Origin: Embleya scabrispora DSM 41855
GTDB lineage: Bacteria; Actinomycetota; Actinomycetes; Streptomycetales; Streptomycetaceae
Length of the DNA stretch: 64,000 bases
Assembly: GCF_000372745.1 (NCBI RefSeq)
Contig: NZ_KB889668.1
Span: forward strand, 62,204 to 126,203
Direction: 5' to 3'
The position numbers and the translations under genes are program-made. The notes below the pieces were generated by a model that was given only the letters and a program-made list of their open reading frames with translations, was not told where the DNA came from and made no database searches. Each line of letters begins with the position of its first letter. Positions within the stretch are counted from its first letter, which is position 1. Of this stretch, positions 7,469-47,960 are shown in pieces.

Positions 7469-8592
7469 GGCGATACGCCGCGTTCGAGGACACCGCGCTG
7501 ACCCTGACGCTGGCCCCGGTGCCCTCGGTGGTCAACGTCAGCACCCCGAAGAAGCCGCAACTCCTCGCCCTCGAACTGACCGTCCGCGGCCGGGCCGAGG
7601 CGCCGGTGTACCTGGACCGGATCGACATCGCCATCCCGCACGGCCCCGGCGCGAGCGAACTGACCACCACCGCCGTCGCGTCGATCAAGGACGGCACGGA
7701 CTACGAGACGCCGCCGGACCAGGGGTGGAGCGCCGAGGCGAGCCTGGTCGGCGGCATCGCGACCGTCTCCTTCACCAACCGGCGCGGGGTCTACGCGGAC
7801 GGCGATTTCGCGGTCACGATGATCCTGTACGACTTCCACGTCAACGAGGAGGTCGGCACCGCCGAGATCGTGGTCGACGAGTGGACCTCGCCCAAGGAGG
7901 ACGACGAGACCACACGGCGCACGACCCGATTCCCGATCGACAAGTGGCCGGCGGACTTCACCTTCGCCAACTTCCGCCCCGACGACGCCACGGTCCGCAA
8001 CGGCGAGACCGTCATGCTGCGTTGGGAGCGCAGCCGAGGCCCGAAGTACACGATGTACTGGGACGGCGGATCCGAGGACGTCACCGCGCGCAGCTCGTGG
8101 CCTTCGAAGAAGCTGTACCACACCACGGGTTTCATGCTCGTCGCCGTCGACGGCGAGGGTGCCGGTCGCCGTACGTACGCGCTCACCACGGCGGTCACCG
8201 TCACCGAGCCGAACCTGCTCGTGGGCAATCTCGATGTCAATGGCATCACCCAACTCCAGGGCCCGAGACAGCAGTTCCCCCTGCCGGCGTCCGGGACCTC
8301 GCAGTACTACCGAGCCGCCACCGACGGAACGCTGGTCGGATATCTCTCCGGCCGCAGCGGCGCGCCGAGTTCGACCCTGGCCGCCACCGTGTACCGGGCC
8401 GGCGCGAACGAGTACACGATGCGCTTCAGCTCGGAGAACCCGGCGGCGACGCCACCCCGGGAGACCCCGATCAGCGTGCCGGTGCCGCAGGACGCCGAGG
8501 TGCTGCTGTACTTCGGCGGACAGAGCGGGGACACCCTCGACCTGGTCTGGCTGCCGCAGGGCACCGGCGGGTTCGAGGTGATGTCGCGATGA
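7465..8592 (+). CDS. Unknown 375-aa beta-rich protein, paralogue of the next gene
   Basis: Starts at GTG 7465, overlapping the previous stop (GTGA). The N-terminal 150 residues look like a beta-sandwich (LALELTVRGRAEAPVYLDRI). The C-terminal half carries a pattern repeated in the next gene: a P-A-D-F-x-F opening, then V-x-x-G-x-x-V-x-L-x-W, then Y-T-M-x-W, and near the end E-T-P-x-x-V-P followed by W-L-P-x-G-T-G. The two proteins are therefore tandem duplicates that have diverged strongly. There is no signal peptide, lipobox or membrane span. The fold resembles Ig-like or lectin-like sandwiches, but no sugar-binding or catalytic residues can be named. Confidence 0.8.
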   Translation: MRRYAAFEDTALTLTLAPVPSVVNVSTPKKPQLLALELTVRGRAEAPVYLDRIDIAIPHGPGASELTTTAVASIKDGTDYETPPDQGWSAEASLVGGIATVSFTNRRGVYADGDFAVTMILYDFHVNEEVGTAEIVVDEWTSPKEDDETTRRTTRFPIDKWPADFTFANFRPDDATVRNGETVMLRWERSRGPKYTMYWDGGSEDVTARSSWPSKKLYHTTGFMLVAVDGEGAGRRTYALTTAVTVTEPNLLVGNLDVNGITQLQGPRQQFPLPASGTSQYYRAATDGTLVGYLSGRSGAPSSTLAATVYRAGANEYTMRFSSENPAATPPRETPISVPVPQDAEVLLYFGGQSGDTLDLVWLPQGTGGFEVMSR

Positions 8593-29782: not shown

Positions 29783-32700
29783 CCGACTCCGAAGAGATCC
29801 TGACCACCCGTCCCGAGCCCGACCCGGCGCAGGCCCGCCGCGAACTGCTCCGTCGCCGGCTGGCCAGGGCGCGCGTGGCGACACCCCGCGCCGACCTGAT
29901 GCCCAGACCCGCGGACGTGCCCGCGCCGCTGTCCGCGGCGCAGCGCCGGATGTGGTTCCTCGCCCAGTACGAACCCGACGGCGCCGCCTACAACATGCCG
30001 CTCGTGCTGCGCCTGACCGGACGGCCGGACGAGGACGCGCTGGTGGCGGCGCTGACCGACGTGGTCGCCCGGCACGAGGTGCTGCGCACGGTGTATCCCA
30101 GCGTGGACGGGCACGTCTTGCCCACCGTGCACGACATCGACCAGTTCCGGGTGTCCGTGCTCGACCCGCCCGAGCCGGACGTGCCCGGGCTGCTCGCCGC
30201 CGAGGCCCGCCGCCCGTTCGACCTCGCCGGCGAACTGCCGATCCGAGCAACGCTGTTGCGTTCGTCCGAGCGGTACGTGCTGAGCGTGGTGCTGCACCAC
30301 ATCGCGGCCGACGCGTGGTCGGTGGGCGTGCTGTTTCGGGACCTGGCCGCCGCGTACACCGCGCGGTGTGCCGGGCATCCACCCGAACTCGCGCCGCTGC
30401 CGGTGCAGTACGCGGACGTCGCGTACCGGCAGCAGACCACGCTCGCGGCCGAGCTCGACCGGCAGTCGGCCTGGTGGCTGGCTCGACTACACGGTGCGTC
30501 CGGCACGGTGACCGTGCCGGTGGACCGCCCGCGTCCGGCCGTCGCGGACACCCGGGGCGAGCGGATCGAGGTCGCCTTCGGGGCGGAGCGCTCGCGGCGG
30601 ATCCGCGCTCTGGCCGAACGCACCGGCGGCACCACGTACATGGTGCTGTTGACCGCCCTGCAGATCGTGCTGGCCCGGTACAACGGGACCACGGACGTCA
30701 CGGTGGGCAGTCCGGTCGCCGGACGCACGCACAGCAGTACCGATGCCCTAATCGGCTGCTTCGTGAACACGTTGGCCATGCGTACCGACCTGTCCGGCGA
30801 GCCGACCGTGCGGGAGTTGCTGGGGCGGGTGCGGGAGCACACCCTGGCCGCCTTCGCCCGGCAGGAACTTCCGTTCGACAGGCTGATCGACGCGCTCGGC
30901 CCGGACCGGGAACTCGCCTACACGCCGCTGTTCCAGGTCCTGCTGAACGTGCACAACCAGGCGCCCGCCCGTCCCGTGCTGCCCGGTGTCGAGGTCGAGT
31001 GGTGCGACACGCACACCGGCGCCGCCAAGTTCGACCTGGCCATCGCCGTGCTCGACACCGCCCCCGGCGACGAACTGGTCGCCGACCTGGTCTGGCGCAG
31101 CGTGCTCTACGACGAGGCGACCATCCGACGGGTGTTCGGTCACCTGACCACCGTGCTGGACGCGATGAGCGCCGACCCGGACCGCTCGGTGGACGAGTTG
31201 CCGCTGCTGACGGCCGCCGAGGAGCGCCGGCTCACCGGGTGGAACGACACCGCCCGGGACTGGGACACCGAGGGTACGCTGCACGCCCTGGTCGAGGAGC
31301 AGGCCCGGCGCACCCCGGACGCACCCGCCGTGCGCGGTGTCGACGGCGAGTTGAGCTACGCCGAACTCGACGCGCGGGCGGAGGGGTTGGCACATCGGCT
31401 GCGCGGATCGGGAGTGGGCCCGGATCGGGTCGTCGGGCTGTTCGCGGAGCGTTCGGTGGCGCTGATCGTGGGCATGCTCGGCATCCTCAAGGCCGGTGGT
31501 GCCTATCTGCCGCTGGACCCGCTGTATCCGGACGAACGGATCCGGGCGCTGCTGGGCGCGGCCGACGCGGTCGCGGTGGTCACGACCGGGGAACTGCGGG
31601 CGCGCGTGGCCGGTTCGTTGCCGATCGTGGTACCCGAGGCGGGCCCTGCGGCTCCGGAGGGCAGCGGGCCGGTCACCTCGGCTGCCCCGATTGTCCCGGG
31701 CGCCTCGGCCGCCTCGGGCACGGAGGCAGGGCCCGGCAACCTCTGCTACGTGTTGTTCACGTCCGGGTCCACCGGCACCCCCAAGGCGGTGGCCGTCGAG
31801 CATCGCAATTACCGCAACTACCTGTCCGGCCTGCGCGAGCGGGTGGGTCCGGGGCGCGCGGCCGACGGGCGGCCGTGGAACTGGGCGCTGGTTTCCACCT
31901 TCGCCGCCGACCTGGGCACCACCAATGTGTTCGGCGCGCTCACCGGCGGTGGGTGTCTGCACCTGTTGACCCGGGAGCAGGCCACCGATCCGGACGCGTT
32001 CGCCCGGTATCTGCGCGCCCATCAAATCGATGCGATGAAGTTGGTGCCCAGCCACCTGGAGGGCCTGGCCGCGCTCGGCGACCGGCTCGCCGAGGTGCTT
32101 CCGCGTGAGCTGTTGATCTGTGCGGGCGAGCCGCTGCGCGCCGATCTGGTGGACCGGATCCGAGCGGCCCGACCGGAGTTGACGCTGCACAACCACTACG
32201 GGCCGACCGAGACCACGGTGTCGATGCTCGGCGCACCGGTTTCGGCCGTGCCGGCCGGCGCGGCGAGTGCGCTGCTGGGACTGCCGTTCGGCAACGTCGG
32301 CGCGCATGTGCTGGACGGGCACGGCCGCGAGTTGCCGGTGGGTGTGCCGGGCGAGTTGTACGTGACCGGGGCCGGGTTGGCCCGCGGCTACCTGGGTCGG
32401 CGGGAGCTGACCGCGGAGCGCTTCGTCGAGTGGGCCGGGCGGCGCGCGTATCGCACCGGCGACCTGGTCCGGCGGCGTCCCGATGGCCTGATCGAGTTCC
32501 TCGGCCGGGCCGATCACCAGGTCAAGATCCGCGGCTTCCGGGTCGAGATCGGCGAGGTCGAGGCCGAACTGGCCGCGCAGCCGGGTGTCCGCGAGGCGAT
32601 CGTGGTGGCCCGCGGCGAAGGGGCGGCGCGCAAGCTGGTCGGCTATGTGGTCGCGGACCCGAGCGCCGAGGTGGACGGCGCCGCGATTCGGGCAGCCACC

Positions 32701-35262
32701 CGGGCCCGGCTGCCCGACTACATGGTGCCCTCGGCGGTGCTCGTGCTGGACGCGCTGCCGCTGACCGGTGCGGGCAAGGTGGACCGGGCGGCACTGCCGG
32801 CGCCCGAGCTCGCACCGGTCGAGACCGGCCACATGGAGCCCGACACCGCGACCGAGGCGGTGGTGGGCGCGGCGTTCGCCGAGGTGTTGGGCACGACCGG
32901 GGTCGGTGCGACCGACGACTTCTTCGCGCTGGGCGGCGACAGCTTCTCCGCCGTCCGGGCGGTTCGCACGATCGGTCGCGGCCTGTCCGTCATCGACCTG
33001 TTCCAACGGCCCACCGTGCGCGAACTCGCCGCCCTGCTCGACGAACGCGCCGGCGAACCGGATGCGGCGAAGCGTCCGCGCACGCTGCTGCACCGGCTCA
33101 CCAAGGACGCCGGGCCGACCACGCTGACCCTGGTCTGTGTGCCGTACGGCGGCGGCAGTCCGATCACCTTCCAACCGCTGGCCGACGCACTGCCCGACCG
33201 ACACCGGTTGTACGCGGTCGAGTTGCCCGGCCACGATCCCAGTCGGCCGGAGGAGGAACCCGAGCCGCTGGAGGAGCTGGCCGATCGGCTGACCGCGCAG
33301 ATCACCGAGCGGATCAGCGGCCCGATCCTGCTCTACGGGCACTGCCTGGGCGGCGCGCTCGCGACCGCGCTGGCCGGCCGGCTGGAGGCGGCCGGTGCCG
33401 AGCTGAGCGGCGTCGCGCTGGGCGGCACCTTCCCGGCCGCACGATTGCCGGGCCGGTTCGCCGAGTGGGTGGCCAGGCGGTTGCCCGGCGACCGGCTGCT
33501 CTCCGACCGTGCCTACCTCGACTACCTGCGCGCGATGGGCGGTTTCACCGACGTCTACGACGACGCCGAACAGCGATACCTGATCCGGGCGTTGCGACAC
33601 GACGTGCGGCAGGCCGAGGACTTCTACACGCGCGCCTACGGTGACGAGCGGCCGGCGCCGGTGGCCGCGCCGATCCTGTGCGTGGTGGGCGACAAGGACC
33701 GGGCGACGCTGCTGTACGAGGAACGCTACGCCGAATGGGAGCACTTCGGTCCACGGGTCGAGTTGGCGGTGATCCCGCGCGCCGGCCACTACTTCCTCAA
33801 GCACCAGGCCGTCGAACTGGCCCGGGTGTTGAGCCGTTGGTCGGCGGGTCCCACACCGGCGGCCGAGCGGCCGAGCGCGCGGCCGGCCTCGGCACGGCCG
33901 AACCTGGCCACCTTCGCGAAGGTGGCGGGCGGACAGTTCGTGTCGATGATCGGCACCGCGCTGTCCACGTTCGCGCTCGGGGTGTGGGTCTATCTGCAGA
34001 CGGGTTCGGCCTTCGACTTCGCGATGATCTCGGTCGCCGCGGTGCTGCCCGCGGTGTTGTTGCTGCCGATCGCGGGCGCGGTCGCGGACCGGGTGGACCG
34101 GCGGCGGATCATGATCGTCACCGATACCGTGGCCGCGGCCGGGATGCTTTCGTTGGGTGTGTTGTTGTGGACCGATCAGCTGCACCTGTGGCATGTGTAC
34201 GTGGTGGCGTGCGTCGGGTCGATCTGCAACGCGTTCCAACGACCCGCCTACATCGCGGCGATCGCCCAACTGGTGCCCAAGCGCTATCTGGGTCAGGCCA
34301 ACGGACTGGCCCAACTGGGCACCGGGTCCGGTGACATGCTCGCCGCGCTGGCCGGCGGCGTGCTGGTGGCGGCGGTCGGGTTGCACGGTGTGGTGCTGTT
34401 CGACATGGCCACGTTCCTGATCGGGGTGACCGTTCTGCTGCGGGTGCGCTTCCCGGACGCCCTGTTCGAAAAGCGCGAGGAGCCGCTGCTGCGCGAAGTG
34501 GTCACCGGGTGGCGGTACATCGTGCGCCGGCGCGGACTGGTGGCGATGGTGGTCTTCTTCGTGGTGTTCAACTACCTCTTCGCGGTGGCCACCGTGCTGG
34601 TCACGCCGATGGTGTTGGCCGACGGCTCGGCGGTGACGCTGGGCGTGGTCACCGCGTTCGGCGGGGTGGGCGCGGTGCTGGGCGCGCTGGTGATGGCGCT
34701 GTGGGGCGGGACCGCCCGGCGGGCCACCGGCATGATCGGCTTCACCTCGGTGGTCGGCCTGGCCGCGGTGTTCGCGGGCAGTCGGCCCGAACCGGTGTTC
34801 GTCGCGCTCGGGTTGTTCGTGTTGTGGGCGGCACTGATGATCCTGAACTCGCACTGGATGGCCCTGATCCAGACCAAGGTCGGGATGGAGTTGCAGGGTC
34901 GGGTGCTGGCCACCAATCAGATGTTGGCGATGTCGATGATGCCGCTGGGCTTCGTGACCGCCGGCCCGCTCGCGGACCGGGTCTTCGAGCCGCTGCTGCG
35001 CTCCGACGGCGCGCTCGCCGGTTCGGTGGGCGTGGTGCTGGGCACCGGACCCGGCCGCGGCACCGGCCTGTTGCTGGTCCTGGTCGGTCTGGCGCTGGGC
35101 GTGTGGGGCCTGCTGGGATTGTGGTACCGGCCGCTGAGTCGGATGGAGGACGCGTTGCCGGACGCGATCCCGGACGTGGAGATCGGCGACAAGGACACGA
35201 TCCAGGCGGAGGCGGACCGGCGGTTGGCCCGCGTGGGGGAGACGGGCCTGCCGGTGTCCTGA
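29779..35262 (+). CDS. NRPS terminal module fused to an MFS exporter (C-A-T-TE-MFS)
   Basis: 1827 aa, ATG overlapping the previous stop. A docking-like Arg-rich N-terminus is followed by C (about 50-480) with HHIAADAW at 173, where the usual Gly after Asp is Ala. A3 spans about 505-1020 (FTSGSTGTPKA near 660, YGPTETT near 807, AGKVDRAAL near 998), and T3 has LGGDSFSA with Ser near 1055. The thioesterase (about 1110-1355) has GHCLGG, so the nucleophile is Cys1189 instead of Ser, with Asp near 1304 and His near 1336. From about 1375 to 1785 a complete 12-helix MFS protein of the EntS-like group follows (GGQFVSMIGTALSTFALGVW), including the DRVDRRR loop between helices 2 and 3. A3 positions read DLTKIAHVS, similar to Asp/Asn codes. 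Synthesis, release and export are thus on one chain. No MbtH or PPTase gene is nearby. Confidence 0.95.
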   Translation: MTDSEEILTTRPEPDPAQARRELLRRRLARARVATPRADLMPRPADVPAPLSAAQRRMWFLAQYEPDGAAYNMPLVLRLTGRPDEDALVAALTDVVARHEVLRTVYPSVDGHVLPTVHDIDQFRVSVLDPPEPDVPGLLAAEARRPFDLAGELPIRATLLRSSERYVLSVVLHHIAADAWSVGVLFRDLAAAYTARCAGHPPELAPLPVQYADVAYRQQTTLAAELDRQSAWWLARLHGASGTVTVPVDRPRPAVADTRGERIEVAFGAERSRRIRALAERTGGTTYMVLLTALQIVLARYNGTTDVTVGSPVAGRTHSSTDALIGCFVNTLAMRTDLSGEPTVRELLGRVREHTLAAFARQELPFDRLIDALGPDRELAYTPLFQVLLNVHNQAPARPVLPGVEVEWCDTHTGAAKFDLAIAVLDTAPGDELVADLVWRSVLYDEATIRRVFGHLTTVLDAMSADPDRSVDELPLLTAAEERRLTGWNDTARDWDTEGTLHALVEEQARRTPDAPAVRGVDGELSYAELDARAEGLAHRLRGSGVGPDRVVGLFAERSVALIVGMLGILKAGGAYLPLDPLYPDERIRALLGAADAVAVVTTGELRARVAGSLPIVVPEAGPAAPEGSGPVTSAAPIVPGASAASGTEAGPGNLCYVLFTSGSTGTPKAVAVEHRNYRNYLSGLRERVGPGRAADGRPWNWALVSTFAADLGTTNVFGALTGGGCLHLLTREQATDPDAFARYLRAHQIDAMKLVPSHLEGLAALGDRLAEVLPRELLICAGEPLRADLVDRIRAARPELTLHNHYGPTETTVSMLGAPVSAVPAGAASALLGLPFGNVGAHVLDGHGRELPVGVPGELYVTGAGLARGYLGRRELTAERFVEWAGRRAYRTGDLVRRRPDGLIEFLGRADHQVKIRGFRVEIGEVEAELAAQPGVREAIVVARGEGAARKLVGYVVADPSAEVDGAAIRAATRARLPDYMVPSAVLVLDALPLTGAGKVDRAALPAPELAPVETGHMEPDTATEAVVGAAFAEVLGTTGVGATDDFFALGGDSFSAVRAVRTIGRGLSVIDLFQRPTVRELAALLDERAGEPDAAKRPRTLLHRLTKDAGPTTLTLVCVPYGGGSPITFQPLADALPDRHRLYAVELPGHDPSRPEEEPEPLEELADRLTAQITERISGPILLYGHCLGGALATALAGRLEAAGAELSGVALGGTFPAARLPGRFAEWVARRLPGDRLLSDRAYLDYLRAMGGFTDVYDDAEQRYLIRALRHDVRQAEDFYTRAYGDERPAPVAAPILCVVGDKDRATLLYEERYAEWEHFGPRVELAVIPRAGHYFLKHQAVELARVLSRWSAGPTPAAERPSARPASARPNLATFAKVAGGQFVSMIGTALSTFALGVWVYLQTGSAFDFAMISVAAVLPAVLLLPIAGAVADRVDRRRIMIVTDTVAAAGMLSLGVLLWTDQLHLWHVYVVACVGSICNAFQRPAYIAAIAQLVPKRYLGQANGLAQLGTGSGDMLAALAGGVLVAAVGLHGVVLFDMATFLIGVTVLLRVRFPDALFEKREEPLLREVVTGWRYIVRRRGLVAMVVFFVVFNYLFAVATVLVTPMVLADGSAVTLGVVTAFGGVGAVLGALVMALWGGTARRATGMIGFTSVVGLAAVFAGSRPEPVFVALGLFVLWAALMILNSHWMALIQTKVGMELQGRVLATNQMLAMSMMPLGFVTAGPLADRVFEPLLRSDGALAGSVGVVLGTGPGRGTGLLLVLVGLALGVWGLLGLWYRPLSRMEDALPDAIPDVEIGDKDTIQAEADRRLARVGETGLPVS

Positions 35263-36942: not shown

Positions 36943-39528
36943 TCAGGACCGCGGGCCCGGGCTCACCTCCAGGGTCGTGGTCAGCGGCAGGTCGGCGCTG
37001 GAGGCGCCCACGCGCAGGGTGTAGCCGCCGGGTTCGGTTTCGCGGCGACCGGTTTGCGCGGACCAGTGCTCGAATGCGCGGGCCGGGATCGCAAGGTCGA
37101 CGGTGACCTCGGCGCCGGCGGGTGCGGTCGCCCACGCGTAGCCGGCCAGCCACAGCGCGGGCCGCTCCACGGCGCCGTCGGCGCGGCTCAGGTACGCCTG
37201 GAGCAGGTGTCGGCCCGGACGCGGCCCGGTGTTGCGGATCCTCACCCGGGCCACGAAGTCGGCGCCGGACGCGACCGTCTCGATCCCGACGTGCTCCCAC
37301 GTGGTCCATCCCAGACCGTGGCCGAACGGGTAGGCAGGCGTCGCGCCCGCCCGGCCCCAGCCGCGATAGCCGATGTGGATGCCCTCGGCGTAGTCGAGCC
37401 GGCCCGCGATCGGCGTGGTGGACAACACCGCCGGATCGTCCTCGCGCTCGGGCCAGGTCATCGGCAACCGGCCGGCCGGCTCGCTGCGCCCGAGCAGTAC
37501 GTCCGCCAGCGCCGCGCCGAACTCCTGGCCGGGAAACCACGAGACCAGGATCGCCGCCACGTCCGCCCGCCACGGCAGCAGCACGGGCGATCCGCTGTTG
37601 ACCACCACCACCGTGTTCGGGTTGACCGCCGCGACCCGGCGGACCAACTCGTCCTGCCGACCCGGCAGCGACAGGTGCGTGCGGTCGCGGCCCTCGCTGT
37701 CGCTCTCCTCGGTGCTGCCCACCACGACCACGGCGACCTCGGCGTCCGCCGCGACCGCGACGGCGTGCGCGAGCTCCGCGTCCTCGTGCACCGGCGGCGG
37801 ATCGACGCCCAGCACGAACCCGGTCCCCGGACGCTCCGCCGCGAACTCGTGGCGCAGGTGCAGCTCGACCTCCCGGCCGGCCGTCAGGTCCAGTTCGGCC
37901 CACCGCTCGGGCGGGGTGAGGATGCCGCCGAGCGGGTCCTCGGTCACCAGGTCGTCGTCCACGAGCGGGACACCGTCCGCGAGCAGCCGGAAGCGACCCA
38001 CGCCGGCCACTCCGATCCGGTGCGGTCCGTCCGCGCGGACCCGGAGTACGCCGATCGCCTCGATCGCGACGGCCCGCGCGACGATCGGATCGTCGAGCCA
38101 CAACAGCCGCCCTCCGCCCCGCGGTTCCTCGTGCAGCACCTCGTCGCCCGGGCCGATGAAGCGCACCCACAGGCCGGGTTCGCCGGTCTTCGGATCGTGC
38201 ACGTCGGCGCCGGTGACCGCGGGCAGCCGGTGCCGGATGCGCGCGCCGACGGCGTGGGTGACCGTCACATCGGGGCCCAGCGCCGCACGTAGCCCGGCGA
38301 GCGGACTGATCGCGTACGGCGGAATGACCGTCGCGCTGCCGCCGCCCTGGATTCGCGCGACGTCGGCGTTGGGGCCGAGCACCGCGACCCGGCGGAGCGT
38401 GTCGGGCGCCAAGGGCAGCGCCGTCCCGGTGTCGCGCAGCAGCACCATGCCCGCCGCGGCCGCCTCGCGCAGCAGGGCGGCGGGATCCGGGTTCGAAAGC
38501 GCCGGGGCCGGTGGCACGATCGCGGTGAGCGCGCCGACCCGGGCCGCGAGCAGCAGCAGCCGGCGCACCTTGCGGTCCACCGCCTCCGGTGCGACCAGGC
38601 CCGCGCGCACCGCGGCCACCAGGGCCGCGCCCCAGGGTCGATCCGGCCCCGGACCGGGCATCGCCAGGTCCAGTTCGGCACGCCCGGCGCCCTCGGTGGA
38701 GCGGGTCGCGAACCAGTCCGAGACGACCAATCCGTCGAAGCCCCACTCGGTGCGCAACGGCGTGTTCAGCAGCGGATTTTCCGTCATCGTGACGCCGTCC
38801 ACGCTGTTGTACGCGGCCATCAGCGCCCAGACGCCGCCCGCGCGCACGATCTCCTCGAACGGGGCGAGGTGGATCTCGTGCAGCGCGCGTTCGGACATCC
38901 GCACGTCGACCGAGTACCGCTCGGTCTCCGAGTCGTTGGCGGCGAAGTGCTTGACGGTGGCCGCCACGCCGCCGGCCTGGATGCCGCGCACCAACGCCGC
39001 GCCGATTCGGCCGGACAGGAGCGGCTCCTCCGAGTAGCACTCGAAGTGTCGGCCGGCGTACGGGCTGCGCTGGAGGTTGACGGTCGGGCCGAGCACGACG
39101 TCCACGTGCTTGCGGCGCGCCTCGACGGCGAGCAGGCCGCCGAGTCGCTCGACCAAATTCTCGTCCCAGGACGCGGCGAGCGTGGTCGGGCAGGGCAGCG
39201 ACGCGGACGGCTCGCGCTCGTCGAAGCGCTCGCCCCGCACGCCCGCCGGACCGTCGCACAACACCATCTCGCGCAGTCCGATGGCGGGTTCGGCAGCGGT
39301 CCGCCAAAATCCGGACCCGGTGAGCAGGCGGACCTTGGCTTCGAGATCGAGTCGGGCCAGGGCCGCCTCGATGTGTTCGTGGATGCGGGCGTCCGGCGCC
39401 CTGGGGCTGTCTGTGGAGGTGGGCGTGGGAGTGGTTTCGAGCGGCTCGAAGGCGCCGGACGCCTCTTCGGCCGAGGACGGGGGAAGGGTGCGGTCATCAT
39501 GACCGTTGGCCTGCGACACGCGGGGCAC
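36943..39528 (-). CDS. GH3 beta-glycosidase with inserted PA14-like domain
   Basis: 861 aa from GTG 39528 (GTG 39519 is the alternative; neither has a ribosome-binding site). The catalytic (alpha/beta)8 barrel begins near 60 (LDLEAKVRLLTGSGFW). VKHFAANDSE and VSDWFA carry substrate-binding residues and the nucleophile Asp271. The second alpha/beta domain follows with GGGSATVIPPY. A PA14-like insert lies at about 430-550 (GLWVRFIGPGDEVLHEEPRG), and a fibronectin-III-like C-terminal domain ends it (GYTLRVGASSADLPLT). No signal peptide, so it acts on imported oligosaccharides or glycosides. It is divergent from a TetR gene and lies with a GH78 rhamnosidase, suggesting use of plant rhamnosyl-glucosides. 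Confidence 0.93.
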   Translation of the reverse strand: MPRVSQANGHDDRTLPPSSAEEASGAFEPLETTPTPTSTDSPRAPDARIHEHIEAALARLDLEAKVRLLTGSGFWRTAAEPAIGLREMVLCDGPAGVRGERFDEREPSASLPCPTTLAASWDENLVERLGGLLAVEARRKHVDVVLGPTVNLQRSPYAGRHFECYSEEPLLSGRIGAALVRGIQAGGVAATVKHFAANDSETERYSVDVRMSERALHEIHLAPFEEIVRAGGVWALMAAYNSVDGVTMTENPLLNTPLRTEWGFDGLVVSDWFATRSTEGAGRAELDLAMPGPGPDRPWGAALVAAVRAGLVAPEAVDRKVRRLLLLAARVGALTAIVPPAPALSNPDPAALLREAAAAGMVLLRDTGTALPLAPDTLRRVAVLGPNADVARIQGGGSATVIPPYAISPLAGLRAALGPDVTVTHAVGARIRHRLPAVTGADVHDPKTGEPGLWVRFIGPGDEVLHEEPRGGGRLLWLDDPIVARAVAIEAIGVLRVRADGPHRIGVAGVGRFRLLADGVPLVDDDLVTEDPLGGILTPPERWAELDLTAGREVELHLRHEFAAERPGTGFVLGVDPPPVHEDAELAHAVAVAADAEVAVVVVGSTEESDSEGRDRTHLSLPGRQDELVRRVAAVNPNTVVVVNSGSPVLLPWRADVAAILVSWFPGQEFGAALADVLLGRSEPAGRLPMTWPEREDDPAVLSTTPIAGRLDYAEGIHIGYRGWGRAGATPAYPFGHGLGWTTWEHVGIETVASGADFVARVRIRNTGPRPGRHLLQAYLSRADGAVERPALWLAGYAWATAPAGAEVTVDLAIPARAFEHWSAQTGRRETEPGGYTLRVGASSADLPLTTTLEVSPGPRS

Positions 39529-40240: not shown

Positions 40241-42535
40241 TCAGCGCGGCCGGCGGATGTCGTGCCGGCCGGCGGGGTAGGACCGGCCGGCGTGCACGAA
40301 CGGCACCGGGCTGCGCACGCTCAACAGCGTCGGTGTCACCGCCACCTCGATCGGTCCCGCCGGGCACGGCACCGCGCCCGACGCCCGGGTCAGCCGGCCG
40401 AGCGCGGGTTCGATCCGGGCCACCGCGAAGCCGGGTTCGGCCGGCTCTACGCCCAGCACGCGTGTCATCAGGTCGCGAGTGGGCGTGGAGGACCAGCCGT
40501 GGCTGATCGTGCCGCCGTACCAGGTCTCGCTCCACGAGGTGTCGCTGCGCGCGAGCAGGGCCACCCAGTCCAGGCACAGGCCGGCGATCAGGTCGGCCCG
40601 GCCCGCCTGCGCCAGCGCGTCGTGCACCACATAGCGGAAGAACGGCTGGGCGCGTACCACCCGACGGCCGGTGTCCCACCACGGCTTCGGCGGCCCGGCC
40701 CGCAGGTGCGCGCCGCCGACCTCGGTGTCCGAGCCGGGTTCGGCGGGGCCGTCCGGAGCGCTGAAGGCGGCGTGCACGAGGTCCTCCTCGGCGGTGAGCA
40801 CGGCGACCAGCCGCTCGATCCGCTCGGCTGGGACCAGGCCGCCCACGATCGCTGCCGCCTGGCCGTGCTGGGACGCCATCGGGCGGCGTTCACCGTTCGC
40901 GAACGAGTCCGCGTAGCGCTCCCGCTCCGGATCCCACAGCCGCTCGAAGCCGATGACGAGCCGGGCATGCGTGGTGCGCGCCCACTGCGCCCGACCGCGA
41001 TCGCCCAGCCAGTCCGCCAGTTCGGCGAACTCCAGCAGTGCCCGGCCCCACAGGCCGCACAGCGCCGCCGAGACGCCCTCGGTGTGCACGGCCGACCAGT
41101 CGATGATCACCCAGCCGAACACGTCGGTGGGCACGCCGGTGTCGTCCAGGAACGGCACGAACCAGCGCAGCACCCGCTCGGCCACCGGGAGCAGTTCGGC
41201 GATCTCCTCCCGATCGCCGACATAGCGGTACAGGTTCCACACCGAGTGCACCCAGTGCAGCGCCCAGTCCGGAATCACCGTGAAGTCGGCCCACTCGGCG
41301 TCCCCGGCCACCGCCATCGGCAACATCCCGTCCGAGCGTGGCGACGCGGCCAGCCGGGGATGCCAACGGGCCAGCCGCCAGTCGGAGTTGGTGGTCAGGT
41401 CGACCAACTGGTGCACCACCGCGTCGCCGGTCCAGGCCCGCTGCTCGCGGGTTGGGCAGTCGACGTAGGCATCCGCCGAACACAGCGTCACGGTGCGGCG
41501 TCCGACCCGCCAGATGTCTTCCAGGCGCGGATCCGAGCAGGCGAACCACGCGTCGCCGGTGACCGGATAGGTGCGTTCGCGGACCGCCACGCGGTGCACG
41601 GTGACGCCGTCCGGGGCCTCGACCAGGACACCGCGCAGGCCGTAGGAGTCGAACGATTCCAGCTCGCGACGGGTGCCGTCGAGGGTCACCGCCAAGCTCG
41701 CGTCGTGCTCGCCGGGAGCGGGGCGTGCGCTCGGGTCGACGAACTCGGCGGTGTGCACGACGACCTGGGCGCCGGCCGGGCCGTGGGCGTCGACGACCAG
41801 GGTGCCGGAGAGCACCTGCTCCGCCGAGTACGCGCCGGCCGAACTCGGGGTCAGGATCGTCTCGTGCGGTCGCGGCCAGCTGATCGGCCGGCCGCCGAAC
41901 GGGCCGCCCGGGTAGCTGGGCGGCTCGGGCCGACCCGGCTCGCCGGTGGTCATCGCGCGCCGCAGTACCGCCGCCGGCCAACCGGGATCGTGGTCGGGAT
42001 GTTGCCAATTCGCGGGCAGCGCACGGGCGTCGAGCAACTCGCGGCCGCGCCCGGAGACGGTGCCGCCGCCGGGGGTCGCGGTCCACCCGTCCAGGACCCG
42101 GGCCTGCCAGCGCTCGTCGGTGACGAACCACGCATCCGGGCCGAGCCGGGCCTCCAGCACGAACGCGCCGTGCACCAGGTCGTTGCCGAACGGCGACGGT
42201 GGCAACCACCACGGATTCGGCCCGTCGTAGACCCAGGCGAGCGCGGTCACGACGTTGGCGCCCGGCCGCAGGTGGGCGGCCAGATCGAGATCGTCGTACG
42301 GCCGGACGCGCGGATTCGCGCGCACCGGCCCGCGCGCCACCTCGACCCCGTTCACGGCCAGCGTGTACCCGGACAACGCGACCACGCGTGTGGGCACCCG
42401 CTCGGGCACTCGGTCCAGGTCGAGAACGGCCCGCAACGCGACGGCATGCCGCCCCTGCGGACGCCCACCCTCCGGTTCGGCCCAGATCCACCGGGCCCGC
42501 CACCGTCCGGGCGGAAAGTCGGTACTGACGATCAC
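40241..42535 (-). CDS. GH78 alpha-L-rhamnosidase
   Basis: 764 aa. GTG 42535 is chosen because AAGGAA lies eight bases upstream. N-terminal jelly-roll domains (RARWIWAEPEGG, LSGYTLAVNGVEVARG) precede the (alpha/alpha)6 catalytic barrel from about 330. DCPTREQRAWTGDA near 355-370 is the GH78 signature with the catalytic-acid region, and TISHGWSSTPTRDL near 685 is the C-terminal family motif. It would remove terminal rhamnose from flavonoid or saponin glycosides. No signal peptide, hence cytoplasmic, matching the GH3 enzyme next door. Its stop faces the TetR stop (18-base gap). Confidence 0.92.
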   Translation of the reverse strand: MIVSTDFPPGRWRARWIWAEPEGGRPQGRHAVALRAVLDLDRVPERVPTRVVALSGYTLAVNGVEVARGPVRANPRVRPYDDLDLAAHLRPGANVVTALAWVYDGPNPWWLPPSPFGNDLVHGAFVLEARLGPDAWFVTDERWQARVLDGWTATPGGGTVSGRGRELLDARALPANWQHPDHDPGWPAAVLRRAMTTGEPGRPEPPSYPGGPFGGRPISWPRPHETILTPSSAGAYSAEQVLSGTLVVDAHGPAGAQVVVHTAEFVDPSARPAPGEHDASLAVTLDGTRRELESFDSYGLRGVLVEAPDGVTVHRVAVRERTYPVTGDAWFACSDPRLEDIWRVGRRTVTLCSADAYVDCPTREQRAWTGDAVVHQLVDLTTNSDWRLARWHPRLAASPRSDGMLPMAVAGDAEWADFTVIPDWALHWVHSVWNLYRYVGDREEIAELLPVAERVLRWFVPFLDDTGVPTDVFGWVIIDWSAVHTEGVSAALCGLWGRALLEFAELADWLGDRGRAQWARTTHARLVIGFERLWDPERERYADSFANGERRPMASQHGQAAAIVGGLVPAERIERLVAVLTAEEDLVHAAFSAPDGPAEPGSDTEVGGAHLRAGPPKPWWDTGRRVVRAQPFFRYVVHDALAQAGRADLIAGLCLDWVALLARSDTSWSETWYGGTISHGWSSTPTRDLMTRVLGVEPAEPGFAVARIEPALGRLTRASGAVPCPAGPIEVAVTPTLLSVRSPVPFVHAGRSYPAGRHDIRRPR

Positions 42536-42920: not shown

Positions 42921-43823
42921 TCAGCGGGCCAGGTGCCCGCGGACCGCAGCCAACCAGGCATCCGGCCGCTCCGTCTGCGGGCTGTGCCTGGCCCCCGCGA
43001 CGACTCGTAGCTCCGCCCCCCGAATGCCCGCGGCAAACTGCTCGGCCGCGCCCCGGAGCCGCCGGTCGTGTTCGCCGACGACGACGGTGACCGGGCAGGA
43101 GAGCTCGGCCAGTCGGCCGACCAATGACGGGTACGCGCCCAGCGCCCGAGCGCAGCCGACGAACGCGGCCGGGTCCATCCCGGTGATCGCGCGGGTCTGC
43201 CGCTCGCGGCGGGCCAGGTCCTCGGGCGTGGCGTCGGCCGGCGTGCGGGTGAACGGCTTGAGCGCGGTCAGCAGCGGGGCCAGGCCGAACCTGCCCACCA
43301 CCGCGTTCATGCCCGCGCTGAGCACCCGCAGCAGCGGCGTGGAGGTGGGTTCGGCCGCGGTGTCCATCAGCACGAGCGAGCGCACCCGGTCCGGGTGGGC
43401 CAGCGTGTACCGCAGCGCCAGGACGCCGCCCATCGAGTGGCCGAGCAGATCGATCGGCTCGGGCAGCATGCGCTCGACGAATCCCTCCAGATCGGCCGAG
43501 AGGTGGTCGAACGTGTAGGCGGATCGGTCCGCGAACTTGGTGCTGTCCCCGTGCCCGCGATGGTCGTACGCGAGGACCCGTCGATCCCGCGCCAGGAGCG
43601 GCGCGACGCCGTCCCAGTCGGCCAGGCTGCCGGCGAATCCGTGCAGCAGGAGCAGCGGCGCGGTGCCCGGATCGGGCTCGACCGCGGGCAGGTCGCAATA
43701 GCGCAGGTCCGCCCCGGAGAACGGTGGTCGAGGGGCGTCGGGGTGGTGCGATTCGGCCTCGCCGTGTGTACCGCCGGCGAGGAGTCGGGATGATGCCGTC
43801 CACGAAAGCCTTCCATCTGGCAT
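42921..43823 (-). CDS. Alpha/beta hydrolase
   Basis: 300 aa from ATG 43823, with no ribosome-binding site but a -10 box exactly seven bases before it. LLLLHGFAGSLADW near 60 forms the oxyanion hole, DHRGHGDS follows, and LLGHSMGGVLAL near 127-138 holds the nucleophile Ser of G-x-S-x-G. The catalytic Asp is expected in VVVGEHDRRL, and His lies in ARHSPQTERPDA. Typical esterase/haloperoxidase-like family. The promoter carries copy B of the element also found before the TetR gene at 39581, so it is probably in the same regulon and may cleave an ester from the glycoside substrate. Confidence 0.88.
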   Translation of the reverse strand: MPDGRLSWTASSRLLAGGTHGEAESHHPDAPRPPFSGADLRYCDLPAVEPDPGTAPLLLLHGFAGSLADWDGVAPLLARDRRVLAYDHRGHGDSTKFADRSAYTFDHLSADLEGFVERMLPEPIDLLGHSMGGVLALRYTLAHPDRVRSLVLMDTAAEPTSTPLLRVLSAGMNAVVGRFGLAPLLTALKPFTRTPADATPEDLARRERQTRAITGMDPAAFVGCARALGAYPSLVGRLAELSCPVTVVVGEHDRRLRGAAEQFAAGIRGAELRVVAGARHSPQTERPDAWLAAVRGHLAR

Positions 43824-43837
43824 GTATTCGATGTTAG
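43804..43837 (-). promoter_or_regulatory. Promoter/operator element, copy B, before the alpha/beta hydrolase
   Basis: On the minus strand TAACAT (43836-43831), seven bases, then ATG 43823: a leaderless promoter. The operator part CATGCCAGATGGAAGG corresponds to the perfect palindrome of copy A but is imperfect. It overlaps the first codons, so binding would block initiation. Confidence 0.55.
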
Positions 43838-44201
43838 CGTCCCGCCGTCGTGATGTGACAACCAAATCCCCCCGGATCCGCCGGGACCAGGGCCACCCGG
43901 CCGCCATTCCCACCACGGATCCGCCATCGCCCGTCGGCGCTCTCGGTGCTGCTCACCGCGGTCGCGCCGATCCCGCGCCCGCCGACTCCACTCGCCGATT
44001 CCACCGCCGACCCATCCGCCGACCGCACTCGTCGGCTCCACCGTCGACCGCACCCGTCGACGGCACCCGACTCGTCGACCCGGCCGGCGCTCCGCCGCCG
44101 GCCCGCACCGCTCCACCGCTGCTCGACTCGCTGGTCCAGCCCGGATCCGCGACCGAACCACCCGTGATCCACTGTTTCGTTCGAAGGACAGGTGAGCCCT
44201 C
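43838..44201. other. 364-bp upstream region of the transporter operon
   Basis: Between the divergent hydrolase and binding-protein genes. Rich in CCGCCGA-type low-complexity sequence; an open frame through it encodes Pro/Arg-rich sequence without family features and is regarded as noncoding. AGGTGAG at 44190-44196 is the ribosome-binding site of the lipoprotein gene. No operator recognised. Confidence 0.4.
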
Positions 44202-45536
44202 ATGTTGCTCCGAGGAGACGGACCCGCTCCGGCGCGACGTATCGCAGTAGGCGTCCTGCTCGCCGCCTTCGGCCTGACCGCTTCGGTCGGCTGCTCGGTC
44301 GAGAAGAAGTCGGACGACAAGAAGCCCGCCGGCCCGGCCGCGGCCCCGAGCGGTCCCGCCCGCGGCGTCACCGACACCACTGTCAAGCTCGGCGTCGCCG
44401 CCACCGACCCGGCCCAGCTCAAGGCATTCGGCGTGCCGAGCGAGGGCCCGGCGAGCAAGGACATGTACGCCGCCTGGATCGCCGCGCAGAACAAACGCGG
44501 CGGTGTCCAGGGCCGCACCATCGAACTCGCCTTCCGCCCGTTCCTGCCCACCGGCCCGGCCGAGGCGCAGGCCGCGTGCGTGGAACTGAGCGAGGACAAG
44601 AAGGTGTTCCTGGCGATCGGCATCCTCACCGGGGACACCCCGCTGTGCTTCACCGAGACGCACGGCACGCCGTACCTGGGCCAATGGGGCCAGTCCGCCG
44701 AGCGCGACCGCCGTTCCAAGGCGCCGTTCGTCGCGCTGGAGATGGCCGACGACCGGCAGCGGGCCGCCGCGGTCAAGGCGCTGCTCGACCAGAAGCTGCT
44801 CCAGGGCAAGAAGGTCGCGCTCTACTGGGAGGCTCAGGACGCGGCGGTCACCAAGAACACCGTCAAGCCGCTCCTGGACGCGGCCGGCGTCGACGTGGTC
44901 GTGCAGACCCCGCTCGACGACTACGGCACCGACCAGGCCGCCGGTGACCAGGCGTTGGACACGCTGGTCCAGAAGATGCGCTCGGCGGGCGCCGACACGA
45001 TCCTCAACACCTCCAACTTCTCCAACCTGATGATCGCGCTGCAACGGGCGAACTGGCTGCCCGAGCAGGTGTACGCGACCTCGGCCCAGGCACTGAGTCC
45101 GGCCGTGGTCAAGACCACCGGGATCAAGCCGGCGACGATGCAGCGGGTGACGGTGGCCGCGCCGTACATTCCGACCAAGGCGGAATTGCTCGCCGATCCG
45201 GCCGTGACGGCGTGCGTGGACGAGTACAACGCGGGCGGCGTCGGCGAGCGCTTCGACGCGGCGGCGGCGAGCCGGGAGAGCCTGAGCGCGGTGGCCAACT
45301 CCTGCGCCGCGTTCCGGCTGTTCGTCCAGGCCGCCGATGCCGCCGGCCGCGACCTCACCGCCGCCTCCTGGCAGCGCGGGGCCGAGTCGCTGACCAAGCT
45401 CGCGCTGCCCGGCATGCCGCTCGCCTCGCTCACCCCCGGCAAGCACAGCGCCGGCGACGCGGTGGGCGTGTACCGCTGGGACCCGACCCAGAACCAGATG
45501 CTCCCGGCGGGGCCGCCGATCTCCGCCACGAAGTGA
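44202..45536 (+). CDS. Substrate-binding lipoprotein of a branched-chain-amino-acid-type ABC transporter
   Basis: 444 aa. Lipoprotein signal: Arg-rich start, core GVLLAAFGLTA, lipobox ending SVGC near residue 31, then a Lys/Pro linker (EKKSDDKKPAGPAAAP). The periplasmic-binding fold of the LivJ class follows (DTTVKLGVAATDPAQLKAFG; LLQGKKVALYWEAQDAAVT). The FGVPSEGPASKDMYAAWI region differs from classical LivJ, so the ligand may be an amide, peptide or polyol and not leucine. First gene of a four-gene operon with fused permease and ATPase proteins; 33 bases separate it from the next. Confidence 0.9.
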   Translation: MLLRGDGPAPARRIAVGVLLAAFGLTASVGCSVEKKSDDKKPAGPAAAPSGPARGVTDTTVKLGVAATDPAQLKAFGVPSEGPASKDMYAAWIAAQNKRGGVQGRTIELAFRPFLPTGPAEAQAACVELSEDKKVFLAIGILTGDTPLCFTETHGTPYLGQWGQSAERDRRSKAPFVALEMADDRQRAAAVKALLDQKLLQGKKVALYWEAQDAAVTKNTVKPLLDAAGVDVVVQTPLDDYGTDQAAGDQALDTLVQKMRSAGADTILNTSNFSNLMIALQRANWLPEQVYATSAQALSPAVVKTTGIKPATMQRVTVAAPYIPTKAELLADPAVTACVDEYNAGGVGERFDAAAASRESLSAVANSCAAFRLFVQAADAAGRDLTAASWQRGAESLTKLALPGMPLASLTPGKHSAGDAVGVYRWDPTQNQMLPAGPPISATK

Positions 45537-45569: not shown

Positions 45570-47960
45570 ATGGACGGCGGCACCGCCGCACCCCAGCGGG
45601 ACGACACCGCGGGCGAGCCCGGAAACCTGGCAGACCTCGCCGGTGCGGTCCTGGACGAATCACCGCGGGCCGCCGGGCGCGGATCGCCCGGCGGCCGGAA
45701 GTCGCCGCCGAGCCCCCACGACCCCGCCGTCGACACCACCGTCCCCGGTGTCGGTGACGGCCCCGGCCGGACGGGCGGGAAGCCGGCCGCCGAGCAACTG
45801 ACCCTGCGTCAAGGTCTGCGTCGCGGCGGCACGTCCGTGTTCACGGTGCTGCTGATCCTGACCGCGCTCGACGAACTCGAAGGCGCCGCGCTCGCGGTGC
45901 TCGCCCCCGACATCCGGGACAGCCTGGGCGTGGGCAACGGCACCATCGTCTTCCTCGGCGTCGCCGCGGGCGCGTTCACCGTGCTCGGCGCGGTGCCGAT
46001 GGGCTGGATCGCGGACCGCTTCCGGCGCGGTCCGGTGATCGGCGTCTCCACCGCGTTCTTCGCCATGATGGTGTTCCTGTCCGGCTTCGCCACGAACGCG
46101 TTCATGTTCTTCTGGACCCGGTTCGGCGCGGGCGTGGCCAAGTCCAACAGCGGTCCCGTGCAGGGATCGTTGTTGGCCGACACCTACCCGATCGGGATCC
46201 GCGGCCGACTCGGCGCCTCGATCGGCGTGTCCGGCCGGCTCTGCGCGGTGCTCAGTCCGTTGGTGGTCGGCGGCATCGCCGCGGCGGTCGGCGGACCCGA
46301 CGGCTGGCGCTGGGCGTACTACCTGCTCGGCCTGCCGGTCGTGGTCTTCGCCGCGTTCGCGTTCTTCCTGCCCGAACCCCCGCGCGGGCAATGGGAGAAG
46401 GCCGACGTGCTCGGCGAGGTGATCGAGGACGAGAACCCGCCGCCGATCTCGATCGAGGCGGCCTTCGCCCGGCTGGGCCGGATCCGCACCCTCAAGACGG
46501 TGATCCTCGCCTTCGCCGCGATGGGCTTCGGCCTGTTCACCACACCCGTACTGGGCAACCTGTTCCTGGAACAGGAGTACGGCCTGGACGCGTTCGACCG
46601 GGGCCTGGTCGGCACCGCCGGCGGCATCGGCGGGCTGCTCGTGCTGCCGTTCATCGGCCGCTACTACGACCGCCGCTTCCGCGAGGACCCGGCACAGGCG
46701 CTGCGCCTGATCGGGTTGTTGATCGTGCCCTCGGCGCTGTTCGCGCCGCTGCAGTACTTCTCGCCCAACCCGGTGCTCTACACGGTCTTCGGCGTGCCGC
46801 AGATCGTGCTGCTGTCCTGCGCGTTCGCGCTGATGGGTCCGCTGATGCAGACGATCGTGCCGTATCGGCTGCGCGGCCTGGGCACCGCGATGGCGTCCAT
46901 CTACGTGTTCTTCATCGGCGCCACCGGCGGCGGCCTGGTCTCCGCGCCGCTGATCGACAGCTTCGGCCCGCGCACCGCGGTGCTGATCACCCTGGTCCCG
47001 GCCACCGTGATCGGCGGGTTGCTGATCATGCGCGGTGCCGGCTACGTGCGTGACGACCTCGCGCTGATCGTGGCCGAACTGCACGAGGAACACCAGGAAT
47101 ACGAGCGCCGGCAGGCCCGACCGGACCAGGTCCCGGTGCTCCAGCTCAACCACGTGGACTTCTCCTACGGCCGGGTCCAGGTCCTGTTCGACGTCGGCTT
47201 CGAGGTCCGGCGCGGCGAGGTACTGGCCCTGCTCGGTACCAACGGCGCGGGCAAGTCGACCATCCTGCGGGCGATCGCGGGCCTGGCCACGCCCGAGCGT
47301 GGGGTGATCCGACTGGGCGGGCGCACGGTCACCTTCGTCGCCCCCGAGCAGCGGATCCGGCTGGGCATCGTGTCGTTGGCGGGTGGCGCGGGCGTGTTCC
47401 CCGGGATGAGCGTGCGGGAGAACCTGGAGATGGGCGCGTACATCCACCGCGGCGATCCCGAGCAGGTGCGGACCCGGATCGAGCGTTCGCTGGGACTGTT
47501 CCCGCAGTTGGTCGAGCGAGCCGACGAGCCGGCCTCGGCACTGTCCGGCGGCCAGCAGCAGATGTTGGCGCTGGCCATGGCACTGTTGCACGACCCCGAG
47601 GTGCTGCTGATCGACGAGCTGTCGCTCGGCCTGGCGCCGGCGATGGTGGCCGAACTGCTCGCGGTGATCGAGCGGCTGAAGGCCGAGGGTCTCGCGATGA
47701 TCGTGGTCGAGCAGTCGCTGAACGTGGCGATGTCGATCGCCGATCGGGCGATCTTCCTGGAGAAGGGTCGGATCCGGTTCGAGGGGGCGGCGGCCGACCT
47801 GGCCGAACGCGACTTCGTCCGGGCGGTGTTCCTGGGCGGCGACGCGGAGGCGGGGGATTCGGCGGTTCCCGCCGATCCCGCCGGCTTCTTCGATCCGGCC
47901 GATCCCGCCGGTTCCGTCGATCCCGCCGGAACCGGGGGAAAGGGTGCCGACCGTGGCTGA
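45570..47960 (+). CDS. MFS transporter fused to a LivF-type ABC ATPase
   Basis: 796 aa. Residues 1-80 are disordered Pro/Gly-rich. About 88-510 is a complete MFS-type membrane domain of 12 helices (FTVLLILTALDELEGAALAV; GWIADRFRRGPVIG is the loop-2/3 motif). From about 525 an ABC ATPase of the LivF kind follows: Walker A LLGTNGAGKST with Lys562, signature LSGGQQQM near 657, Walker B VLLIDELSLGLAP near 680 and switch VVEQSLNVAM. The tail is a short Asp/Pro/Ala repeat. An ATPase covalently attached to an MFS carrier is unusual. Here it probably pairs with the LivG domain of the next protein, coupling both membrane units. Confidence 0.92.
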   Translation: MDGGTAAPQRDDTAGEPGNLADLAGAVLDESPRAAGRGSPGGRKSPPSPHDPAVDTTVPGVGDGPGRTGGKPAAEQLTLRQGLRRGGTSVFTVLLILTALDELEGAALAVLAPDIRDSLGVGNGTIVFLGVAAGAFTVLGAVPMGWIADRFRRGPVIGVSTAFFAMMVFLSGFATNAFMFFWTRFGAGVAKSNSGPVQGSLLADTYPIGIRGRLGASIGVSGRLCAVLSPLVVGGIAAAVGGPDGWRWAYYLLGLPVVVFAAFAFFLPEPPRGQWEKADVLGEVIEDENPPPISIEAAFARLGRIRTLKTVILAFAAMGFGLFTTPVLGNLFLEQEYGLDAFDRGLVGTAGGIGGLLVLPFIGRYYDRRFREDPAQALRLIGLLIVPSALFAPLQYFSPNPVLYTVFGVPQIVLLSCAFALMGPLMQTIVPYRLRGLGTAMASIYVFFIGATGGGLVSAPLIDSFGPRTAVLITLVPATVIGGLLIMRGAGYVRDDLALIVAELHEEHQEYERRQARPDQVPVLQLNHVDFSYGRVQVLFDVGFEVRRGEVLALLGTNGAGKSTILRAIAGLATPERGVIRLGGRTVTFVAPEQRIRLGIVSLAGGAGVFPGMSVRENLEMGAYIHRGDPEQVRTRIERSLGLFPQLVERADEPASALSGGQQQMLALAMALLHDPEVLLIDELSLGLAPAMVAELLAVIERLKAEGLAMIVVEQSLNVAMSIADRAIFLEKGRIRFEGAAADLAERDFVRAVFLGGDAEAGDSAVPADPAGFFDPADPAGSVDPAGTGGKGADRG

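Follow-up and report, generated by a model that had tools for sequence, protein, structure and literature searches.

Introduction

ABC transporters and MFS carriers constitute two great superfamilies and are regarded as distinct machines that draw on different energy sources. Embleya scabrispora DSM 41855 contains an open reading frame in which an ABC ATPase of LivF type follows an MFS carrier. The question raised by this locus is whether such a chain is a genuine protein and, if so, what an importer ATPase and an unrelated carrier would do together. A preliminary description of the sequence had proposed that the two are coupled, for instance as an exchanger paired with an importer. The window is the whole 64,000-nt stretch of DNA analysed (contig NZ_KB889668.1, 62,204 to 126,203, forward strand), and all coordinates below are positions in it. 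No description of the MFS-LivF architecture was found in the literature searched.

Domain organisation of the fusion protein

The fusion protein is encoded at 45570-47960 (+) as a single ATG-started frame of 796 aa, in which a 12-helix MFS carrier is followed by a short helical linker and then by a LivF-type ABC ATPase. Pfam MFS_1 covers residues 95-447 with 123.5 bits (cutoff 33.4) and ABC_tran residues 541-683 with 99.8 bits (cutoff 25). The AlphaFold2 model, built on a 36-row alignment, reached a pLDDT of 80 and a pTM of 0.74. The N-terminal cytoplasmic tail, residues 1-72 (45570-45785, +), is predicted to be disordered (pLDDT < 50), as is the C-terminal tail after the ATPase fold. A short xxLPGVG motif recurs in the N-tails of relatives, as judged from the alignment consensus, and takes the form VPGVG in E. 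scabrispora.

The MFS domain spans residues 88-489 (45831-47036, +), delimited by the model, the motif tallies and the fold match. Membership of the MFS is indicated by the MFS_1 match together with 12 transmembrane helices in the model, and motif A is intact as PMGWIADRFRR (residues 143-153). A modelled linker helix, residues 493-516 (47046-47117, +), leads from TM12 to the ATPase. At its start, Asp496 is present in 70 of the 72 fused MFS rows, the other two being gaps; both stand-alone MFS rows also have it, and it is therefore not specific to the fusion. The distance from Asp496 to Walker A is 58-61 residues in 35 of 36 rows, a near-constant spacing that speaks for a fixed geometry.

The LivF-type nucleotide-binding domain occupies residues about 523-757 (47136-47840, +), as assigned by the NCBIfam UrtE and LivF models and by fold; in the AlphaFold2 model the ATPase fold runs from 524 to 755. 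Its Walker A (GTNGAGKS, residues 556-563, 47235-47258, +), ABC signature (LSGGQQQ, residues 658-664, 47541-47561, +) and Walker B with the catalytic Glu683 (VLLIDEL, residues 678-684, 47601-47621, +) are all intact. The presence of a complete LivF-like domain in frame behind the MFS, as first described, is thus confirmed within one 796-aa frame.

Conservation and distribution

Three genomes of the same genus (G001, G002 and G003) encode the fusion at 88-89% over nearly the whole length, and the record of Embleya sp. NBC_00888, which is unannotated over this part, encodes it in one piece, with 100% of the query covered at 90%. The E. scabrispora genome itself has another fused copy (61%; contig C112, locus L013). 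The preliminary description had named two observations that would speak against the fusion, a local frameshift artefact and isolated domains in all relatives. A frameshift or assembly artefact is ruled out by the full-length fusion in the three same-genus genomes and in Embleya sp. NBC_00888, and the domains are not isolated in all relatives, as fused copies occur in genomes across the class and phylum.

The distribution is patchy, with full-length fused matches in 5 of 21 close relatives, at least 28 of 296 class genomes and at least 16 of 296 phylum genomes (own genome included in each case). The class and phylum counts are lower bounds because three candidates were scored per genome. This recurrence in class and phylum genomes shows that the fusion is not due to chance. 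Matches to the ATPase only were found in a further 9 class genomes and a further 5 phylum genomes, and genus g9 of the same family gave no match in any listed species in the class-genome search. Loci with a taxon name include those of Yinghuangia, Kribbella, Nonomuraea, Candidatus Microthrix, Ilumatobacter and many Acidimicrobiia MAGs. Among the best 80 of 588 confirmed contig matches, all are Actinomycetota wherever a taxon is named, with a few titles saying only ‘bacterium’. The MFS-F-G systems on two contigs titled Bifidobacterium breve (L089 and L092) closely resemble those of other actinobacterial MAGs, and the contigs are probably mislabelled MAGs. Judged on its sequence, the MFS-LivF fusion is real and conserved.

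When the MFS part was searched at E <= 1e-20 in 148 class genomes, 16 matches were returned: 13 fused, two stand-alone (31-32%) and one cut short, a 179-aa frame. The stand-alone MFS proteins of loci L178 and L179 have no Liv permease nearby and, in an MFS tree built without a wider outgroup, nest among the MFS-F-G rows. In the ATPase tree, several MFS-less ATPases nest inside fused groups, with at least four label changes. The two trees are compatible with loss, fission and repeated gain alike.

The operon and its partners

Liv/HAAT-type ABC importers, such as E. coli LivKHMGF and the urea system UrtABCDE, constitute TC family 3.A.1.4. The operon at the window has the components of such an importer. 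Upstream of the fusion lies a substrate-binding protein (SBP) of Peripla_BP_6 type at 44202-45536 (+; PF13458, 57.8 bits, cutoff 31.7), the nearest solved relative of which is 4n03, a branched-chain amino acid SBP-like protein (E 4.1e-6). Downstream, a LivH-LivM-LivG fusion of 1027 aa at 47944-51027 (+) joins two BPD_transp_2 permeases (two stretches, 178.3 bits, cutoff 26.8) to the partner ATPase, the LivG part of which has the H-loop IEHD. The first 17 nt of its frame are shared with the end of the MFS-LivF frame. This neighbouring fusion, already noted in the preliminary description, is real. An esterase of hormone-sensitive-lipase type (PF07859, 193 bits) follows directly at 51031-51984 (+); the NCBIfam LipP1 model scores 229.1 bits on it, below the cutoff of 350. 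Loci L019, L020 and L021, from three further genomes of the genus, likewise have SBP, fusion, LivHMG and esterase, the SBP of L019 being cut by a contig end.

The system shares with Liv/HAAT importers a Peripla_BP_6-type SBP, two BPD_transp_2 permease domains, LivG-like and LivF-like ATPases and the usual H-loops (IEHD and VEQ). It differs in that H, M and G form one chain, LivF stands behind a 12-helix MFS, and the LivF-like ATPase has DEL and a GG Q-loop with LivF and UrtE model scores well below the curated cutoffs.

Partners were sought across loci with HMMs built for this analysis and run on stop-to-stop frames. A first count gave 76 fusion places, after removal of L053 (identical to L016) and of the second match in L107. 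LivH and LivM lie on the same strand in 70 of these, and the other six lie either where a contig ends or on a short contig. Where 4.5 kb was available on both sides, LivH and LivM were present in 44/44 loci and an SBP was near in 39/44. A further 26 class loci (L180-L205), chosen by protein similarity only and not by the DELSLGLAP pattern, have LivH and LivM in 25 cases; in the remaining one the contig stops after LivH. The joint count comprises the first set and these loci, 102 rows in which L107 appears twice for its two MFS matches; near-identical copies, whether from the genus or from elsewhere, were not removed. The MFS is N-terminal to the ATPase in all 102, and LivH and LivM stand alongside on the same strand in 69/69 loci with 4.5 kb on both sides.

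Two layouts predominate among the 76 places, MFS-F with H-M-G in 38 and MFS-F-G with H-M in 27 (one of them, L018, misfiled), the other 11 being different or cut by contig ends. The gene orders are SBP, MFS-F, H-M-G, or H-M, MFS-F-G, SBP, with a few others. In the second layout both ATPases stand behind the MFS; a model of a natural MFS-F-G chain gave a pLDDT of 83.9 and a pTM of 0.65. On whether the architecture always sits beside LivH-LivM-LivG fusions, the point raised in the preliminary description, the association with LivH and LivM holds at every flanked locus, but the H-M-G fusion is not obligatory. An MFS restricted to the neighbourhood of HMG fusions is ruled out by the 27 places with the second layout.

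Only one locus (L096) has another LivF-type ATPase nearby, which is part of that locus's own second copy of the system. Because LivH and LivM stand alongside and the only other LivF comes from that copy, the fused ATPase almost certainly serves the importer as its LivF subunit.

The ATPase is LivF-like but not an ordinary LivF

The best NCBIfam models for the fused ATPase are UrtE and LivF, yet both score below their own cutoffs; the LivF equivalog NF008626 gives 176.4 bits against a cutoff of 441. The domain is thus best classed as LivF-like and not as a LivF equivalog. Its fold matches T. maritima 1ji0 (38% identity, Z 33.5), and its H-loop is VEQS, as in LivF-type ATPases. At the Walker B catalytic Glu site ordinary LivF has DEP whereas the fused ATPase has DEL, and the EG of the ordinary Q-loop is replaced by GG.

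The constancy of DEL is partly by construction among loci L052-L131, which were found through the DELSLGLAP pattern. In the 22-row alignment A1, with rows chosen by protein similarity, D682, E683 and L684 are invariant. DEF replaces DEL in three small-genome relatives (L201-L203).

MFS-less sisters with the same type of ATPase make up 18 of 93 tallied domains, one of the 18 being really a LivG match. They occur as an H-M-F-G single chain, as F with H-M-G, or as separate genes. Since such sisters exist, the ABC core does not require the MFS and can apparently do without it. Both DEL and the GG Q-loop are present in these MFS-less ATPases, and so are not caused by the MFS. The importer core without MFS is a single H-M-F-G chain in L113, L118-L121, L125, L128 and L130, with a length of 1,254-1,401 aa where called. 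In one fused copy, L018 (G004 contig 1), an in-frame gap removes the ATPase signature and Walker B. This copy counts as one of the 76 places. Its gapped ATPase kept it out of the 102-row count; it was also excluded from the distance analysis and is absent from both trees.

These observations bear on the idea that the ATPase drives or gates the MFS as an ATP-powered pump independent of LivHM. The covalent link through a short helix at near-constant spacing would suit such a pump, as would a Q-loop unlike that of ordinary LivF. The idea is nevertheless very unlikely, for LivH and LivM are always there where the flanks allow and no other LivF serves them, while MFS-less F of the same type keeps the same partners and shows the same Q-loop change.

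The MFS is spinster-like

A 26-row profile of the MFS part alone found HnSpns (6e8j) first (4.9e-37), followed by Spns1 (1.1e-28) and Spns2 (4.4e-22). Structural comparison likewise placed Spns1 (Z 39.1, rmsd 3.0 over 411) and Spns2 (Z 38.4, 2.8 over 392) at the top, with other MFS carriers such as MCT1 (Z 36.8) and OxlT (36.7) close behind in fold. By profile and fold, the Spns proteins are therefore the closest among solved MFS carriers. The best named NCBIfam matches are the anion:cation symporters (2A0114, 55.3 bits) and the aromatic acid:H+ symporters (2A0115, 50.4 bits), far below the cutoffs of 395 and 418.55, which makes them distant kin only.

In HnSpns, proton coupling is reported to depend on Asp41, Arg42, Arg122 and Glu129 and on the motif A relay Asp87-Arg91-Asp142 (PMC9440201). 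The aligned residues in E. scabrispora are Glu104, Gly105, Arg184, Lys191 and Asp149-Arg153-Asp204. The motif A/TM4 Asp charge relay is shared with the Spns carriers, with Asp149 in 60/72, Arg153 in 72/72 and Asp204 in 71/72 fused rows. The TM1 pair Asp41-Arg42, in contrast, is Glu104-Gly105 here; among the fused rows, position 104 is D or E in 49/72 and position 105 is Arg in 21/72. The TM4 proton switch Glu129 corresponds to Lys191, a position that is K in 25/72 fused rows and at which Glu is absent from the nine commonest residues. A further difference from HnSpns, Spns1 and Spns2 is that only the fused MFS is joined to an ATPase. With a mostly preserved relay and variable pocket residues, the fused MFS is best described as spinster-like and is not filed as Spns. 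Not every fused copy need be a proton-linked carrier, some lineages having lost the motif A Asp and the TM1 acid.

Selection and co-divergence

Between E. scabrispora and L019, L020 and L021, dN/dS over the MFS is 0.073, 0.134 and 0.149, and over the fused ATPase 0.100, 0.150 and 0.157. LivH, LivM and LivG gave 0.080-0.132 in two comparisons, and the tails gave 0.56-0.93 (N-tail) and 0.71-1.07 (C-tail). Purifying selection on the MFS is as strong as on the ABC subunits.

The MFS bundle could instead serve LivF passively, as a membrane anchor or as a scaffold for assembly, and no longer transport. This would agree with the ABC cores that lack an MFS in several lineages, with the loss of the motif A Asp in 12/72 fused rows and with the Lys at the spinster proton-switch position in E. 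scabrispora. Such an anchor is nonetheless improbable in view of the full 12-helix fold in the model, a dN/dS as low as that of the ABC subunits and the nearly unchanged Arg153 and Asp204; moreover, an ATPase already docked on LivHM would presumably have no use for a 12-helix anchor.

Across 54 loci, MFS distances correlate with those of F (0.871), H (0.898), M (0.896) and G (0.876), and 0/500 permutations were as high. At the 36 loci with an SBP nearby, the partial correlations given F and G are 0.616 for MFS-SBP, 0.605 for LivH-SBP and 0.312 for LivM-SBP; the partial correlation for MFS-LivH is 0.65. MFS-SBP still gives 0.395 when F, G, H and M are all held. The SBP signal is not unique to the MFS, since F-SBP given G, H and M is 0.356. 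Divergence of the MFS in step with SBP and LivH is read as a probable sign of shared specificity; part of the SBP correlation may come from faster evolution of membrane and binding proteins than of ATPases.

The same data weigh on the view that two independent transporters were fused merely for co-expression or stoichiometry, with no shared substrate and no mechanistic cross-talk. Its appeal lies in the varied partner layouts (F with HMG, or FG with HM) and in an MFS that was repeatedly lost or gained more than once. It too is improbable, given that MFS divergence tracks SBP and LivH more than the ATPases and that no unfused MFS match above 60 bits was found beside any operon examined, weak matches of 50-59 bits being present in L017, L074 and L118.

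Neighbouring genes and the substrate

Three genes diverge from the operon on its upstream side: a GH3 glycosidase at 36946-39528 (-; PF00933/PF01915), an alpha-L-rhamnosidase-type glycosidase at 40244-42535 (-; PF17389, 78.5 bits) and an alpha/beta hydrolase at 42924-43823 (-; PF00561, 116.7 bits on the longer frame 42921-43916). At L013, the SBP gene of the paralogous system is followed immediately by that of a GH3 glycosidase (2262-4730, -, contig C112). Neighbour clustering places GH3 near four loci, the window copy and those of L013, L014 and L063, with a Pfam check in two. A substrate reading from the GH3 neighbours was rejected, four loci being too few to rest on.

In a Pfam scan of neighbours (140 of 345 proteins), at most six share one family. 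The shared families are short-chain dehydrogenases (6), AMP-binding proteins (5) and acyl-CoA dehydrogenases (3), a set suggestive of CoA-linked catabolism of acids but not decisive. The neighbour enzymes, including the hydrolases, GH3 and the rhamnosidase-type glycosidase, weakly suggest that lipophilic acids or glycosides are broken down, and such acids or their glycosides may be the substrates. The hints are diffuse, and substrates probably differ between copies of the system.

Elsewhere in the window, three consecutive genes at 1401-8589 (+), called as 771, 1251 and 375 aa, have no Pfam match at E 0.001, and the protein encoded at 54946-56418 (+) combines two DUF4082 stretches with a Big_5 domain.

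Other carrier fusions

The window holds another chain with a C-terminal MFS, an NRPS at 29779-35256 (+), preceded by 24782-29776, in which Condensation, AMP-binding, PCP and thioesterase domains and the carrier share one frame. The MFS domain (MFS_1/MFS_3) is at residues 1383-1724. Three further genomes of the genus retain its thioesterase-MFS part at 91%, and long open frames contain additional copies at close to 50% and 40%. It is an MFS fusion independent of MFS-LivF, the second such in the window, and its carrier is perhaps an exporter of the product.

The transporter classification includes a Sensor Kinase-MFS fusion family, 2.A.1.34 (PMC3924187). It resembles the present case in that an MFS carrier is joined to a functional partner domain; the partner there is a sensor kinase, whereas here it is the ATPase of another transporter.

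A proposed two-route transport unit

The explanation preferred, with a probability of roughly 0.6 for the whole, is that the protein is the LivF subunit of a Liv/HAAT-style importer and carries a complete, working MFS carrier at its N-terminus, the two forming a two-route unit. What the sequence does establish is the fusion and its conservation, the constant operon partners, the intact motifs and the purifying selection. The fused ATPase would pair with LivG under LivH-LivM; with no other LivF in the operon, completion of the importer together with LivG is the simplest reading. Each importer would then hold one MFS bundle, tethered by the helix of about 24 residues (493-516). The MFS may, with less certainty, be a proton-linked, spinster-like carrier for the same amphipathic substrate class or its product. 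The unit would combine ATP-driven high-affinity uptake through LivHM with a secondary MFS route, for uptake or for efflux and exchange, and the fusion would fix the stoichiometry of the two routes.

Of the coupling originally proposed, the physical link between ABC importer and MFS carrier is well supported, with LivH-LivM beside it in 69/69 flanked loci and both domains under selection. MFS transport may also be coupled energetically to the ABC cycle, and the carrier may act as an exchanger, the direction of transport being a matter that sequence cannot decide. A speculative and rather unlikely form of such coupling is one machine in which ATP binding and hydrolysis at LivF-LivG act through the linker helix to gate or time the carrier. 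The carrier would then be proton-linked and would handle the importer's own amphipathic ligand at the same site, by exchange, ejection or co-import.

An importer ATPase and an unrelated carrier are conserved in one chain, so that two usually separate transport machines have apparently been built as one. With the covalent link present in many actinobacterial lineages and in two operon layouts, mechanical or kinetic coupling of primary and secondary transport within one complex becomes directly testable. Names drawn from one domain, whether MFS transporter or ABC ATP-binding protein, would misdescribe such actinobacterial proteins either way.
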